DNA of 33,229 nucleotides from Candidatus Limimonas coprohippi (GTDB lineage Bacteria > Bacillota > Clostridia > Oscillospirales > Acutalibacteraceae): assembly GCA_018065925.1 (NCBI GenBank), contig JAGHSI010000045.1:1-33229 (forward strand), written 5' to 3'. This document shows, piece by piece, positions 13,314 to 33,080 of this stretch. The notes below the pieces were generated by a model. It worked only from the letters and a program-made list of their open reading frames with translations, did not search any database and was not told where the DNA came from. Each line of letters opens with the position of its first letter. Positions within the stretch are counted from its first letter, which is position 1. The translations under genes were made by a program, and so were the position numbers.

Positions 13314-13387
13314 GCGGGTGTAGTTCAATGGTAGAATCCCAGCCTTCCAAGCTGGTTGTGTGGGTTCGATTCCCATCACCCGCTCCA
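13314..13387 (+). tRNA. tRNA-Gly (anticodon TCC)
   Basis: 74 nt with encoded CCA. The acceptor stem GCGGGTG/CACCCGC is perfect, the anticodon loop CTTCCAA reads TCC at 13346-13348, and the T loop is TTCGATT. First gene of the cluster. Confidence 0.97.
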
Positions 13388-13403
13388 TTTTTTGCGGATA
13401 TAC

Positions 13404-13480
13404 GCGCTGATAGCTCAGTTGGATAGAGCATCTGCCTTCTAAGCAGAGGGTCGGGGGTTCGAATCCCTTTCAGCGTGCCA
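13404..13480 (+). tRNA. tRNA-Arg (anticodon TCT)
   Basis: 77 nt with encoded CCA. The anticodon loop CTTCTAA reads TCT at 13438-13440. Acceptor GCGCTGA pairs with TCAGCGT with a G1-U72 wobble, discriminator G73. The T stem (GGGGG/CCCTT) contains two further G-U pairs. Decodes AGA/AGG. Confidence 0.96.
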
Positions 13481-13483
13481 TAT

Positions 13484-13561
13484 GGTGGGTATAGCGTAGT
13501 TGGTTAACGCGCAAGTTTGTGGCACTTGAGACCATCGGTTCGAATCCGATTATCCACCCCA
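13484..13561 (+). tRNA. tRNA-His (anticodon GTG)
   Basis: 78 nt with encoded CCA and the His-specific extra G(-1) at 13484 facing C73. The anticodon loop TTGTGGC reads GTG at 13519-13521. Only 3 nt separate it from tRNA-Arg. Confidence 0.96.
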
Positions 13562-13569
13562 CAAAGCTG

Positions 13570-13598
13570 AAAGGCGGCTAAAAAGCCGCCTTTCTTTT
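13570..13598 (+). terminator. Intrinsic terminator inside the tRNA cluster
   Basis: A perfect 10-bp stem AAAGGCGGCT/AGCCGCCTTT with an AAAA loop, followed by an interrupted T tract (TTTCTTTT). It lies between tRNA-His and tRNA-Gln, only 7 nt before the latter. Confidence 0.88.
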
Positions 13599-13605
13599 AA
13601 TATTA

Positions 13606-13680
13606 GGGGATGTCGCCAAGGGGTAAGGCAACGGACTTTGACTCCGTGACTCGTAGGTTCAAATCCTGCCATCCCTGCCA
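13606..13680 (+). tRNA. tRNA-Gln (anticodon TTG)
   Basis: 75 nt with encoded CCA. The anticodon loop CTTTGAC reads TTG at 13638-13640. Acceptor GGGGATG pairs with CATCCCT, giving a G1-U72 wobble in place of the usual U1-A72 pair of bacterial tRNA-Gln. It lies between two terminators with no visible promoter of its own. Confidence 0.95.
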
Positions 13681-16040: not shown

Positions 16041-16763
16041 ATGAGTGAGAACAAACTAAAGCTTGAGAATAAACTTCATGAAATAGCAAAAGATAATAAA
16101 ATTGCACTCGCTTATTCTGGTGGAGTTGATAGCAGTATATTAAAGACTGTCGCAGAACTTGCTGGGATTGATGTCCTGCCACTTACTTTTGATCTCAGCG
16201 AATCGTTGAAATTAAAAGAGGTTAGGATGAATGATAAGGAGCGTTGTTATTATTGCAAATCACTCATGATGAGCACTTTTAAAAGAATCGCAGCGGAGGC
16301 TGGATATGAGGTTCTCTGTGACGGCACGAATGCCGATGATAGAAAACAGTATAGGCCAGGCCTTCGTGCGCTTGAAGAGAACGGTGTTATAAGCCCTATA
16401 GCCGAAGCTGGTATTACAAAAGAGGAACTTCGTGCTATCGGTAAAGAACTTGGTCTTCCTGTCGCAAGTAAGCCATCATCTCCATGTCTTCTCACTCGTT
16501 TCCCATATGGTACTTTCGTTACTGACGAGATGCTTGATGCTGTTGACAACGCCGAAAGGATTGTAAAAGAGGCGGGATTTGAGGCTTGCCGTGTGCGTGT
16601 TTATGGGGCTTTATCAAAGGTTGAAGTGCCAGTAGAGGAAATTGCTCTCGCACAAAAAGAAAACCTCACAGAGAAGCTCTGTGAGGTACTGAGATCTATA
16701 GGCGTTGAAAAAGTTGATTTTGACCCTAAAGGTCTTAGATCTGGAACTATGGATGAGAATTAG
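16041..16763 (+). CDS. larE: Nickel-pincer cofactor sulfur transferase LarE
   Basis: LarE supplies sulfur to pyridinium-3,5-biscarboxylate mononucleotide during synthesis of the nickel-pincer nucleotide cofactor of lactate racemase. The 240-residue protein has the PP-loop SGGVDSS (26-32) for ATP, the NDKERCYYCK motif and the SPCLLTRFPYG motif. Cys69, Cys72 and Cys149 are all present; Cys149 aligns by context with the sacrificial Cys176 of Lactobacillus plantarum LarE, while the CxxC pair suggests the three-Cys, [4Fe-4S]-type LarE. ATG 16041 follows AGAGGA. It converges with larC2: the two stop codons share 16761-16762. Its 3' coding part carries the terminator of the opposite operon. Confidence 0.93.
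   Translation: MSENKLKLENKLHEIAKDNKIALAYSGGVDSSILKTVAELAGIDVLPLTFDLSESLKLKEVRMNDKERCYYCKSLMMSTFKRIAAEAGYEVLCDGTNADDRKQYRPGLRALEENGVISPIAEAGITKEELRAIGKELGLPVASKPSSPCLLTRFPYGTFVTDEMLDAVDNAERIVKEAGFEACRVRVYGALSKVEVPVEEIALAQKENLTEKLCEVLRSIGVEKVDFDPKGLRSGTMDEN
16651..16687 (-). terminator. Terminator of the acn-rex-larBC2 operon, antisense within larE
   Basis: Read on the minus strand, ACCTCACAGAG pairs with CTCTGTGAGGT (11 bp, perfect, 16677-16687 with 16663-16673) around a 3-nt loop and is followed directly by TTTCTTTTT. This is a good intrinsic terminator 73 nt past the larC2 stop. On the plus strand the same hairpin lacks a T tract. Confidence 0.85.
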
Positions 16764-17173
16764 TTTTTATAAATATCATTAATAGAAATATCATTCTCAT
16801 CAGCAAGTCTTTTTACATCTGAATATTCAAGACTGATCTTTTTGATGTCTTCGTATGAGAATTCGTTTGCCTTAACTGTGCCGAACTTTGTCTCTACAGT
16901 TGTTGGCTGTCGATCCATGATAACTCTATCAAGTTCCGAACGTCTCATACCAACAGCGCTTGTATGCTTAAAGATAATCTTAATTAAATCATTTTCCTGC
17001 TCAGGTTTGCACATTACTGAAAGTGCATAAGCTGGGCGGGATTTTTTCATATAAATAGGTGAAAACCAAGCATCTTTTGCACCGGCATCCAGAAGCTTTT
17101 CAAGAGTATAGCCAAGAACTTCGCCGCTACAGTCATCAATGTTTGTCTCAAGGAGAATAATCTTATCAGTCAT
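16760..17173 (-). CDS. larC2: Stand-alone LarC2 domain (nickel-pincer cofactor nickel insertion)
   Basis: A 137-residue protein matching the C-terminal half of LarC, the CTP-dependent nickel insertase of the lactate racemase cofactor. Recognisable are LLETNIDDCSGEVLGYTLEKL, the DAWFSPIYMKKSRP segment and the VGMRRSELDR motif. The N-terminal half (LarC1, with the His-rich nickel-binding region) is not in the window. ATG 17173 is preferred over an in-frame TTG at 17191 because GGAGG lies 8-9 nt before it. It begins 1 nt after the larB stop. In L. plantarum larC1 and larC2 are joined by programmed frameshifting; here no larC1 lies upstream. Confidence 0.88.
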   Translation of the reverse strand: MTDKIILLETNIDDCSGEVLGYTLEKLLDAGAKDAWFSPIYMKKSRPAYALSVMCKPEQENDLIKIIFKHTSAVGMRRSELDRVIMDRQPTTVETKFGTVKANEFSYEDIKKISLEYSDVKRLADENDISINDIYKN

Positions 17174-17174
17174 A

Positions 17175-17855
17175 TTATTTTCCTCCTTCAACCATGGCGT
17201 TTATCTGAGCTGCGCTGTAACCGGCGCCAAAGCCGTTGTCGATGTTGACGACACTTGTTCCCGCAGCACAGGAATTAATCATAGAGAGAAGGGCAGAGAC
17301 GCCTTCAAAGTTGGCGCCGTAACCTATTGATGTAGGAACTGCAATTACTGGTACAGTTACAAGTCCACCGATAACTGTGCAGAGCGCACCTTCCATGCCG
17401 GCAACTGCAACGATAGCAGTTGCTGTTCTAATGTCATCGATTTTATCGAGGAGACGGTGAAGACCGGCAACACCCACATCATAAAACTTCTCTACATTAG
17501 CACCACACATATATGCTGTCACAGCAGCTTCTTCAGCAACAGGGATGTCAGTAGTACCTGCTGTGCAAACAGCAACTTTTCCGACAAGTTTCTCTGGCTC
17601 GCCAATTGTGATACAACGAGCTTGTTCGTGCCATACGGCCTCGGGAATTTCTGCTTTTACAGCCTCATATTGAGCGAGCGTTGCTCTTGTTCCGAGAACA
17701 AGGCCGTTATTCCTGTATAAAGTTTTAAATATTTCTACGCACTGGTCGACTTTTTTGCTCTGACAGAAGACTACTTCTGGAAATCCAGTGCGTCTTTTTC
17801 TGTCAAGATCAAGGCAAGCAAAGTCGCCAACTGCTTCATACATCTTATCTGACAT
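17175..17855 (-). CDS. larB: Nickel-pincer cofactor biosynthesis carboxylase LarB
   Basis: LarB carboxylates and hydrolyses nicotinic acid adenine dinucleotide, the first step of nickel-pincer cofactor synthesis. The 226-residue protein has a PurE-like core with the AGTTDIPVAEEA motif (about 99-110), the VAGMEGALCTVIGG glycine-rich segment and NSCAAGTSVVNIDNGFGAG, where Cys196 corresponds by context to the Cys that forms the substrate adduct. ATG 17855 follows AGGAGA. It lies 10 nt after the Cys-rich gene and is coupled to larC2. Confidence 0.93.
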   Translation of the reverse strand: MSDKMYEAVGDFACLDLDRKRRTGFPEVVFCQSKKVDQCVEIFKTLYRNNGLVLGTRATLAQYEAVKAEIPEAVWHEQARCITIGEPEKLVGKVAVCTAGTTDIPVAEEAAVTAYMCGANVEKFYDVGVAGLHRLLDKIDDIRTATAIVAVAGMEGALCTVIGGLVTVPVIAVPTSIGYGANFEGVSALLSMINSCAAGTSVVNIDNGFGAGYSAAQINAMVEGGK

Positions 17856-30191: not shown

Positions 30192-31074
30192 AACAAATAG
30201 GCATAATCTAACAAAAAGCAAAAGAAAAAATAAAATAGAAATACTAATCAAACGAACGACAGCCGCCATATTTGTCGTCCTGACGCTGGCAATTACGTAT
30301 TTGCCAGGAACGCCGTCTTGGGATGACATTTACGCGGCTGTCGGTCTTTGTTCGGCCACCCAGACGTATGAGCTTGATGACTTAAATGTGTTTTTTATAG
30401 ACGTGGGTCAAGGCGATTCAATACTTGTATATACAGAAGGTTCTTCAATCCTCATAGATACGGGCTCGGAGGGGAATGAGGACAAGATATACAGATTGTT
30501 AAAAGACTTGGATATTGAAACTTTGGACTATCTCATTATTACTCATCAACATGAGGATCATATGGGCTCACAAAAGGGGCTTGAGAGACGCATAAGAATT
30601 AGCAATGAAATCATTCCAAGTTCCACTTCAAAGATGTCGGGTATGACCCTTGAACTTCCCGTAAATGAGAGGGATAAAATTACCTTGAATTTTCTGGGTC
30701 CAATATTTGGTAGTGATAATCAAAACAATATGTCACTTGTCATAAAATTGGTCTATAAAAATACGAGCTTTCTCTTTACGGGTGATGCCGAGGAAGAGGA
30801 GGAGATGAGTCTTGTGAGGCAGTGTGGGGACGCATTAAAATCAGACGTTTTAAAGGTCGGGCATCACGGCTCGGAAAGCTCGTCGACAATGACTTTTTTA
30901 AATATGGTGCAACCGAAGTTTGCCGTCATCTCGGTTGGCGCCGGGAACGATTACGGACACCCGCACGAATCAACCCTTGAGTCGCTTAAAAGGGTGGGTG
31001 CCGAGACCCGTCGCACCGACCGTGACGGCACAGTTCTCTGCACCACAAATGGTGAGAAAGTTGAATTTAAATAA
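30115..31074 (+). CDS. ComEC-like metallo-beta-lactamase fold protein, membrane anchored
   Basis: A 319-residue protein: a strongly basic N-terminal tail (1-47), one membrane segment (about 48-64), then an extracytoplasmic MBL domain related to the C-terminal part of ComEC/Rec2. Metal motifs are HQHEDH (His144, His146, Asp148, His149), FTGDAE and GHHGSESS; VFFIDVGQGDS is the typical opening strand. Stand-alone versions are thought to be nucleases or hydrolases; the substrate is unknown. ATG 30115 follows AAGGA with 9 nt spacing and overlaps the YgiQ gene by 77 nt in another frame. No terminator is visible between it and the rpsB promoter. Confidence 0.85.
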   Translation: MDRTDQIGAKSNRAKGKQIRNKKESKTNRHNLTKSKRKNKIEILIKRTTAAIFVVLTLAITYLPGTPSWDDIYAAVGLCSATQTYELDDLNVFFIDVGQGDSILVYTEGSSILIDTGSEGNEDKIYRLLKDLDIETLDYLIITHQHEDHMGSQKGLERRIRISNEIIPSSTSKMSGMTLELPVNERDKITLNFLGPIFGSDNQNNMSLVIKLVYKNTSFLFTGDAEEEEEMSLVRQCGDALKSDVLKVGHHGSESSSTMTFLNMVQPKFAVISVGAGNDYGHPHESTLESLKRVGAETRRTDRDGTVLCTTNGEKVEFK

Positions 31075-31077
31075 TTC

Positions 31078-31106
31078 TTGCATTATATATATGCGCGTGT
31101 TATAAT
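31078..31106 (+). promoter_or_regulatory. Promoter of rpsB-tsf
   Basis: TTGCAT (31078-31083), 17-nt spacer, TATAAT (31101-31106) with extended -10 TG at 31098-31099. The spacer contains ATGCGCGTGT directly before the -10 box. The predicted start, near 31113, gives a leader of about 120 nt. Confidence 0.85.
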
Positions 31107-31122
31107 TGTCGAGCAATTCGCA

Positions 31123-31200
31123 CGCAAGGCGTAGAACGCTGCTGTTGAACGTCGTGTAAGCAATCGGCGTTGTTAAGCGTTTCTTTAAGACGCACTTGCG
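31123..31200 (+). promoter_or_regulatory. Structured rpsB leader (candidate ribosomal-protein-binding element)
   Basis: CGCAAGGCGT (31123-31132) pairs with ACGC-A-CTTGCG (31190-31200) in a 10-bp helix with one bulged A. Inside it TGCT/AGCA (31140-31143 with 31159-31162) and AACGC with either of two GCGTT copies (31167-31171, 31177-31181) can pair. The element ends 33 nt before the rpsB ATG. No terminator-like hairpin is present, so control, if any, would act on translation or RNA stability. Binding by S2 is only inferred from the autoregulation known for E. coli rpsB. Confidence 0.5.
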
Positions 31201-31233
31201 GAGGTTGAAACATTATTTTTAGGAGGACATAAC

Positions 31234-31971
31234 ATGTCAGTAATTTCAATGAAACAATTGCTTGAAGCTGGTGTACACTTCGGTCACCAGACAAGAAGAT
31301 GGAACCCTAAGATGGCTGAGTACATCTTCACAGAGAGAAATGGTATCTATATCATCGATCTCCAGAAGACAGTTAAGAAGCTCGAGGAAGCTTATAACGT
31401 TGTACGTGACATCTCTGCTGAAGGCGGAGAGATTCTCTTCGTTGGTACAAAGAAGCAGGCTGCGGATTCTGTTAAGGAAGAAGCTATCCGTGCAGGTATG
31501 CCATACGTAAATGCTCGTTGGCTCGGCGGTATGCTCACAAACTTTAAGACAATTCAGAAAAGAATTAAGAGACTTGAACAGCTTCGTGCAATGAGAGAAG
31601 ACGGTACATTCGATCTTCTTCCAAAGAAGGAAGTAGCAAAGCTTGAACTTGAGATTGAAAAGCTCGAGAAGTTCATGGGTGGTATCACAGAGATGAAGAA
31701 GCAGCCAGCTGCTATGTTCATCGTTGACCCACGTAAGGAAAGAATTGCTGTTGCTGAAGCTCACAAGCTCGGTATTCCAATCATTGCTATCGTTGATACA
31801 AACTGTGACCCAGATGAAGTTGATTACGTTATCCCAGGTAACGACGACGCTATTCGCGCAGTAAGACTTATTGCTGGCGCTATGGCTGATGCTATTATCG
31901 AGGGTCGCCAGGGCACAGACGCTCCTGTTGCAGCACCAGCTGCTGAGGAAGCACCAGCAGAGGAGGAATAA
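31234..31971 (+). CDS. rpsB: 30S ribosomal protein S2
   Basis: Ribosomal protein S2, 245 residues, normal length. The signature segments [22 protein letters not shown] and the later [19 protein letters not shown] and [20 protein letters not shown] are clear. The C-terminus is an Ala/Glu-rich tail as in many S2 proteins. ATG 31234 follows AGGAGG (31221-31226). tsf starts 2 nt after its stop, the universal bacterial pairing. Confidence 0.98.
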
Positions 31972-31973
31972 TC

Positions 31974-33080
31974 ATGGCATTTACAGCTCAGGACGTAAAA
32001 GCTCTTCGTGAGAAGACAGGCGTTGGTATGATGGAGTGCAAGAAGGCACTTGTTGAATCTGACGGTGATATGGATAAGGCTATTGATTATCTTCGTGAGC
32101 GTGGACTTGCTGCTGCTACAAAGAAGGCATCAAGAGTTGCTGCTGAAGGCGTAGTACTTGCTTACTTAGATGAAGCTAAGAAAATCGGTGTACTTGTAGA
32201 AGTTAACTCAGAGACAGACTTCGTTGGTAAGAACGAGAAGTTCCAGTCTTTCGTACTTGACGTTGCTAAGACAATCGTTGAGAAGAACCCAGCTGATGTT
32301 GAGGATCTCGTAAACGTTAACCTCATCGGTACTGATAGAACAGTTCAGGAGAACCTTCAGGATCTCATCCTTTCAATTGGTGAGAACATGAAGATTCGTC
32401 GTTTCGCTAGAATCGAAGGTTACACATGCTCATACATCCACGGTGGTGGATCTGTAGGCGTTGTTGTTGAATTTGACGCTAACGATGAAGCATTCGCTAC
32501 AGAAGACTTCAAGGCTATGGGTAAGAACATTGCTATGCAGATTGCTGCTATGCACCCAGAGTACCTTTCACAGGATAGCATCTCAGCTGATGAACTTGCA
32601 AAGATGAAGAATATCATCATCGAGAGCTCACTCAACAAGCCAGATTCTCTTCCAAAGCCAATTCTTACAAAGGTTATCACAGAAGCTATTGATAAGAAAC
32701 TTTGGAGCGATGCAGACATCGCTGCATATGAAGAGCAGAAGAACAACAAGTTCCTCTTCAACTTCCTCTCAGATGAGGCTGTTGCAACACTTGCTTCACT
32801 TGCAGTTGCAGGCAAGGACGAGTTCGTTAACGATAAGATCTTCGCTGGCGCTTTCGATGGCCGTATGAAGAAGCAGATTAAAGAAATCTGTCTTCTCGAG
32901 CAGCCATTCGTACGTACAGACCTCTTCGAAGGTAGCGTAGGCGGCTATGTTGCTGACGTTGCTAAGAAGCTTGGCACAGACATCAAAGTTAAGAACTTCA
33001 CTTGCTTCGTAAAGGGCGAAGGTATTGAAAAGAAAGAAGAGAACTTCGCTGACGAAATCGCAAAGATGGTTAATGGCTAA
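31974..33080 (+). CDS. tsf: Elongation factor Ts
   Basis: Nucleotide exchange factor of EF-Tu. The N-terminal UBA-like part (VKALREKTGVGMMECKKAL) and core motif LVEVNSETDFVGKNEKF, with the TDFV residues that contact EF-Tu, are intact, and it ends with the usual GEGIEKKEENFADEI. At 368 residues it is well above the roughly 285-310 of most homologues: between the HPEYL segment (193) and KEICLLEQPFV (304) there are about 110 residues where B. subtilis has about 50. The extra stretch (about 225-290) is largely helical in character. Codon use and composition are like rpsB, so this is probably a real domain expansion. Confidence 0.95.
   Translation: MAFTAQDVKALREKTGVGMMECKKALVESDGDMDKAIDYLRERGLAAATKKASRVAAEGVVLAYLDEAKKIGVLVEVNSETDFVGKNEKFQSFVLDVAKTIVEKNPADVEDLVNVNLIGTDRTVQENLQDLILSIGENMKIRRFARIEGYTCSYIHGGGSVGVVVEFDANDEAFATEDFKAMGKNIAMQIAAMHPEYLSQDSISADELAKMKNIIIESSLNKPDSLPKPILTKVITEAIDKKLWSDADIAAYEEQKNNKFLFNFLSDEAVATLASLAVAGKDEFVNDKIFAGAFDGRMKKQIKEICLLEQPFVRTDLFEGSVGGYVADVAKKLGTDIKVKNFTCFVKGEGIEKKEENFADEIAKMVNG

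Follow-up and report, generated by a model that had tools for sequence, protein, structure and literature searches.

A structured leader of rpsB in Candidatus Limimonas coprohippi and Firmicutes relatives as a putative S2-responsive element of the rpsB-motif/t44 kind

Introduction

In Escherichia coli, an excess of ribosomal protein S2, helped by S1, represses the rpsB-tsf operon through its leader, a control which has been experimentally established, and the co-repressor role of S1 is known for E. coli only (review PMC10931766). An rpsB motif has been described from most Alpha- and Gammaproteobacteria, from Cyanobacteria and from some Firmicutes; in the Firmicutes, its pseudoknot has 3 bp and its P2 is short or missing (Meyer et al. 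2009, BMC Genomics 10:268, PMC2704228). This was the only work returned by our literature search for an S2 leader in Clostridia, and a Firmicutes S2 leader is absent from the list of Eckert and Weinberg 2020 (PMC7247131). As far as the literature found shows, S2 control has been documented experimentally only in gammaproteobacteria. Here, the region upstream of rpsB in Candidatus Limimonas coprohippi is compared with these systems; the window refers to the whole analysed stretch of 33,229 nucleotides (contig JAGHSI010000045.1). A first-pass annotation, made from the sequence letters, had proposed a structured and possibly new autoregulatory leader at this place.

Organization of the rpsB locus

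The leader is followed by two consecutive genes identified by Pfam, rpsB for ribosomal protein S2 (31234–31971, +; PF00318 Ribosomal_S2, E=4.5e-105) and tsf for elongation factor Ts (31974–33080, +; PF00889, E=1.1e-54), which by their position form an operon. Judged by S2, the closest named relatives (83–88% identity) are MAGs that carry the labels Clostridia, Oscillospiraceae or Ruminococcus, which places the window in an uncultured Clostridia lineage of gut or rumen type. Upstream, a gene for a metallo-beta-lactamase-fold protein ends at 31074, followed by a predicted promoter (31078–31106, +) with a -35-like TTGCAT (31078–31083), a 17-nt spacer and an extended -10 element TGT-TATAAT (TG at 31098–31099, TATAAT at 31101–31106). 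The weak -35 element, with three of six consensus matches, explains why the promoter is missing from the consensus-scan list, and the TATAAT and its spacing are kept in the leader alignment of same-genus relatives. Transcription probably starts at about 31113, which would give a leader of about 120 nt.

All leader parts lie on the forward strand. The unpaired 5' flank CGCA (31119–31122; family consensus CRCA) adjoins P1 and is conserved, with positions 5, 7 and 8 of the motif near invariant in 98 leaders. P1 is formed by CGCAAGGCGT (31123–31132) and ACGC-A-CTTGCG (31190–31200) with A31194 bulged, exactly the helix that the first-pass annotation had drawn, and the AACGC (31135–31139) and two GCGTT copies (31167–31171 and 31177–31181) that it had pointed out are likewise present. 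The inner helix P2 pairs 31134–31140 with 31176–31182, and the P3 hairpin (31148–31171) pairs AACGUCG (31148–31154) with CGGCGUU (31165–31171) around the loop UGUAAGCAAU. P1 is followed by an unpaired, conserved GAGG (31201–31204), whose three G residues are invariant in 98 of 98 leaders and which is found in E. coli too, and by the Shine-Dalgarno sequence AGGAGG of rpsB (31221–31226). A direct repeat AGCAAU was observed just 5' of the motif (31112–31117) and in the P3 loop (31159–31164), kept in six genus genomes. The terminator/attenuator check found no terminator in the leader, and a terminator or attenuator reading was ruled out.

Some other features of the window and genome were also noted. 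A gene covering only the C-terminal half of LarC (nickel insertion; profile 237–375) lies at 16763–17191 (-) and adjoins LarB-like and LarE-like genes; its N-terminal counterpart (profile 1–245) is found on another contig (G000:C116:1300-2109, -); being on different contigs, the halves look like separate unlinked genes and not a frameshifted pair. A cluster of four tRNA genes occupies 13314–13677 (+).

Covariation of the leader helices

The folding energy of the 106-nt leader was unremarkable (z=-0.47), and the 78-nt core gave z=-1.98, with 8 of 200 shuffles equally stable; as these energies are not exceptional, the structure was assessed by comparison. Complete rpsB genes were collected from seven genomes of the genus, the window's own among them, and their leaders were aligned. 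Among six same-genus leaders, nine pairs were doubly changed yet still paired, against 4.1 expected by shuffling (0 of 500 shuffles reach nine), and 89.2% of cells were paired, against 31–54% when slid. All three helices, P1, P2 and P3, stay paired through two-sided changes in the genus. P1 changes from CGCAAG/CUUGCG to CGCGAG/CUCGCG or CGCAGG/CCUGCG, and P2 changes from AACGC/GCGUU to AGCACG/CGUGCU; P2, which uses the second GCGTT (31177–31181), has four doubly changed pairs. P3 is 100% paired in the genus; its hairpin with loop AAGCAAUC hardly varies among six genus genomes, in which P1 and P2 drift, is absent from the same-genus leader L007, and may represent a genus-specific S2 contact (31146–31174).

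The same pattern was observed over larger distances. Across 98 leaders, in an alignment that was fitted to a model and so leans towards the structure, 90.5% of the cells of the structure including the pseudoknot were paired (61.9% shuffled, 32–58% slid), 523 cells were doubly changed (170 shuffled), and the covariation score was 0.706 (0.180 shuffled, 0.05–0.11 slid). In the outer five pairs of P1, pairing reached 99.6%, each of them occurring as several pair types, P2 also covaried in this set, and the hairpin equivalent to P3 covaries across the family. Covariation of P1, P2 and P3 was also recovered in a set of 84 leaders that came mostly from a protein search, and in the 98-leader, genus and 84-leader sets alike 0 of 500 shuffles reach the observed number of compensatory double changes. 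The compensatory changes in relatives thus uphold the helices and the structured rpsB leader of the first-pass annotation, and the leader is most likely S2-autoregulatory, which that annotation had raised as a possibility. Applied to MAFFT alignments of distant leaders, RNAalifold recovered only P1, because loop lengths vary among these leaders.

Pseudoknot and spacer

A further pairing, absent from the earlier description, reaches the nucleotides shortly before the Shine-Dalgarno sequence. The UGUU between P2 and P3 (31143–31146), which R2, a covariance model described below, aligns to the family position NGU (usually GGU), pairs and covaries with AACA (31209–31212), 8 nt upstream of the Shine-Dalgarno sequence. 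In the family, GGU is complementary to the ACC that directly precedes the Shine-Dalgarno sequence, and the two vary together, as in CAGGU/ACCUG, CGGU/ACCG and UUGGU/ACCAA. Because a model-fitted alignment favours the structure, an alignment-light test was made: AC was located in the raw linker, and the base following it was compared with the one preceding GU. This N1 position was paired (G-C, U-A or A-U in step) in 86 of 94 leaders, with a shuffle maximum of 80, and in 50 of 62 leaders of an independent set (loci of named genomes fetched only by S2 protein similarity), with a shuffle maximum of 45; the next position outwards showed a weaker excess of pairing. The pseudoknot is only 3–4 bp long, with the strands UGUU/AACA (4 bp) in the window leader and UAGU/ACUA in the same-genus leader L006.

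The U-rich spacer between the pseudoknot and the Shine-Dalgarno sequence (31213–31220) is longer than in most relatives, being 7–10 nt and U-rich in the genus versus mostly 2–4 nt in the 98-leader set, and longer ones are found in a minority of leaders of the independent set too. The highly conserved family block GGUGC, present in the same-genus leader L007 and most of the family, is replaced in the window genus, and so recognition may have changed; the window leader lacks GGUGC and carries the blocks CGCACGC and GCGGAGG. The genus has a derived variant, a modestly new observation, in which the GGU/ACC pseudoknot has become UGUU/AACA and the U-rich spacer has lengthened.

Distribution and relation to t44

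Among 150 family genomes, 138 have rpsB, and reading upstream of the gene in more than 100 of them showed a shared order of CRCA, P1, P2, GGU, P3 hairpin, P2', P1', GAGG, AACC, AGGAGG and start codon. Two covariance models were built, R1 from nine leaders and R2 from 88, both home-made so that their E-values are rough. R1 did not recover the window leader, and R2 matched it at 31115–31226 (28.6 bits, E=2.6e-4) as its sole match in the genome; a search there for a second leader copy gave only a match of 15 nt at the Shine-Dalgarno region. Across a phylum-wide sample of 200 genomes, R2 has exactly one match in each of 159, and the best 30 matches all lie directly upstream of rpsB, 0–14 nt from the rpsB match (one of them, L143, positioned by a separate search). 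The true share lies above 159 of 200, since 18 of the genomes with no listed match were rechecked and 14 of them do match when the rpsB region is searched alone. Part of the family alignment went into R2, whereas the 80 rpsB loci that the S2 protein had retrieved from named genomes did not; 77 of these 80 match R2, including the Bacillaceae Ornithinibacillus, Fictibacillus and Metabacillus. The leader is thus present in most of the Firmicutes sampled, where Rfam misses it, which is modestly new.

The Rfam family RF00127 (t44; gathering cut-off 44 bits) gave no match on the window at the gathering threshold or at E up to 10, and the other Rfam matches in the leader at these thresholds, DUF3800-I and mir-1011, were rejected as chance only. 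No match above the RF00127 cut-off was obtained in 100 family genomes or in 200 phylum genomes, and by Rfam's own cut-off the leader is outside RF00127. Below the threshold, the five best family matches are all rpsB leaders (G045, E=9e-7; G079; G058; G034; and G078), and sub-threshold matches occur in 42 of the 200 phylum genomes, most at R2 coordinates. In the other direction, R2 weakly matches (17.8 bits, E=0.06) the leader of E. coli, in the t44 register; this leader is matched by Rfam t44 and reads CACACACGUAUCGGC..GGGGUGCCC..GGGGUCGG..GAUACGUGGAGGCAUAACCCC. Given that the architecture is that of Meyer et al. 2009 and that the best t44 matches fall on rpsB leaders, the sequence comparison places the leader as a divergent member of the known rpsB-motif/t44 kind and not as a new class. 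The possible newness raised by the first-pass annotation is accordingly dropped, an rpsB motif of this architecture having been published already (PMC2704228). A sub-threshold t44 match was also seen in the control genome of Thermotoga maritima, and this suggests a range of the S2 leader wider than Proteobacteria and Firmicutes.

Proposed control and alternative explanations

The leader is very likely an S2-responsive translational autoregulatory element of the rpsB-motif/t44 class, including pseudoknot-based control, where we infer, by homology with E. coli, that S2 is the ligand, which way the control runs and how the block works. The long interrupted stem of P1 and P2 carries the P3 hairpin, and the NGU between P2 and P3 pairs with the ACN between P1 and the Shine-Dalgarno sequence to form the short pseudoknot. 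Under an excess of S2 over 16S rRNA, the free protein, perhaps together with S1 as happens in E. coli, would bind the leader and stabilise the pseudoknot beside the ribosome-binding site; because the pseudoknot adjoins the Shine-Dalgarno sequence, such S2-stabilised folding could hinder ribosome entry, and translation of rpsB and the downstream tsf would be lowered. A doubtful extension of this reading is an ancient, nearly universal and largely uncatalogued control element of Firmicutes rpsB that was rebuilt in the genus (UGUU/AACA, a new fixed P3, and a U-rich spacer that could recruit S1 or alter pseudoknot control of the ribosome-binding site) into a distinct mode of S2 recognition.

A structured leader sensing something other than S2, mainly an mRNA stability element or a constitutive translation enhancer, is unlikely: folded 5' leaders can protect mRNA and the abundance of Staphylococcus aureus rpsB-tsf mRNA strongly depends on RNase Y, but the RNase Y sites there lie inside and after rpsB, outside the leader (PMC4608709), the homologous E. 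coli leader responds to S2 (review PMC10931766), and the element occurs once per genome, always at rpsB. An unrelated Clostridia class of S2 leader, merely convergent in shape with the proteobacterial rpsB motif, would agree with the window going unmatched by RF00127 at the thresholds used and with 0 of 300 Firmicutes genome searches above the Rfam cut-off; it is very unlikely, given that the best sub-threshold RF00127 matches are exactly the rpsB leaders, that the signature of CACAC before P1, GGUGCC at P3, and GGAGG and AACC after P1 is common with E. coli, and that some Firmicutes were already joined to the rpsB motif by Meyer et al. (PMC2704228).

The two alternative folds suggested by the first-pass annotation, in which AACGC (31135–31139) pairs with either 31177–31181 or 31167–31171, find no support in the covariation. 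Both partners are present in the window and most genus members, and pairing with the first GCGTT is possible in 90% of cells, but this pairing has one doubly changed pair, which 65–74 of 500 shuffles equal, and several compensatory changes were found only for the pairing with 31177–31181; the alternative partner strand is near invariant because it belongs to P3, and such a two-state switch is highly improbable. Chance structure, with conservation due to a promoter or DNA binding, fits the unremarkable folding energy and has next to no probability, as it is already refuted by the compensatory double changes, which no shuffle of 500 reaches, and the -10 element sits upstream of the motif. With an S2-responsive leader preferred, its place before rpsB in most sampled Firmicutes makes S2 autoregulation directly testable in Gram-positive models, where compensatory changes in the pseudoknot can guide mutations, and the leader alignment could extend the Rfam t44 family.

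Comparison with known systems

The L13 leader of Bacteroidia, whose operon includes rpsB, and the S4 leader of Clostridia are likewise ribosomal-protein leaders from comparative genomics, but they differ in ligand and gene (Eckert and Weinberg 2020, PMC7247131). With t44 (RF00127), the rpsB leader and S2 operator of E. coli, the Firmicutes leaders have in common the rpsB-tsf operon and the blocks CACAC-P1-...-GGUGCC-P3-...-P1'-GGAGG..AACC, and the E. coli pseudoknot GGGGU/ACCCC occupies the same place as that of Firmicutes; a long AU-rich spacer before the Shine-Dalgarno sequence is another likeness of E. coli. In contrast, the pseudoknot of the proteobacterial form is longer (5 bp), and the Firmicutes tested all fall below the curated cut-off. 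Of the rpsB motif, the position before rpsB, the long interrupted P1 with covariation, the P3 hairpin at the top with a short or absent P2 arm, and the pseudoknot from J2-3 to the 3' extension after P1 were all found here, whereas the window genus differs in having UGUU/AACA for GGU/ACC, no GGUGC consensus, a fixed P3 hairpin with the AAGCAAUC loop and a longer U-rich spacer.
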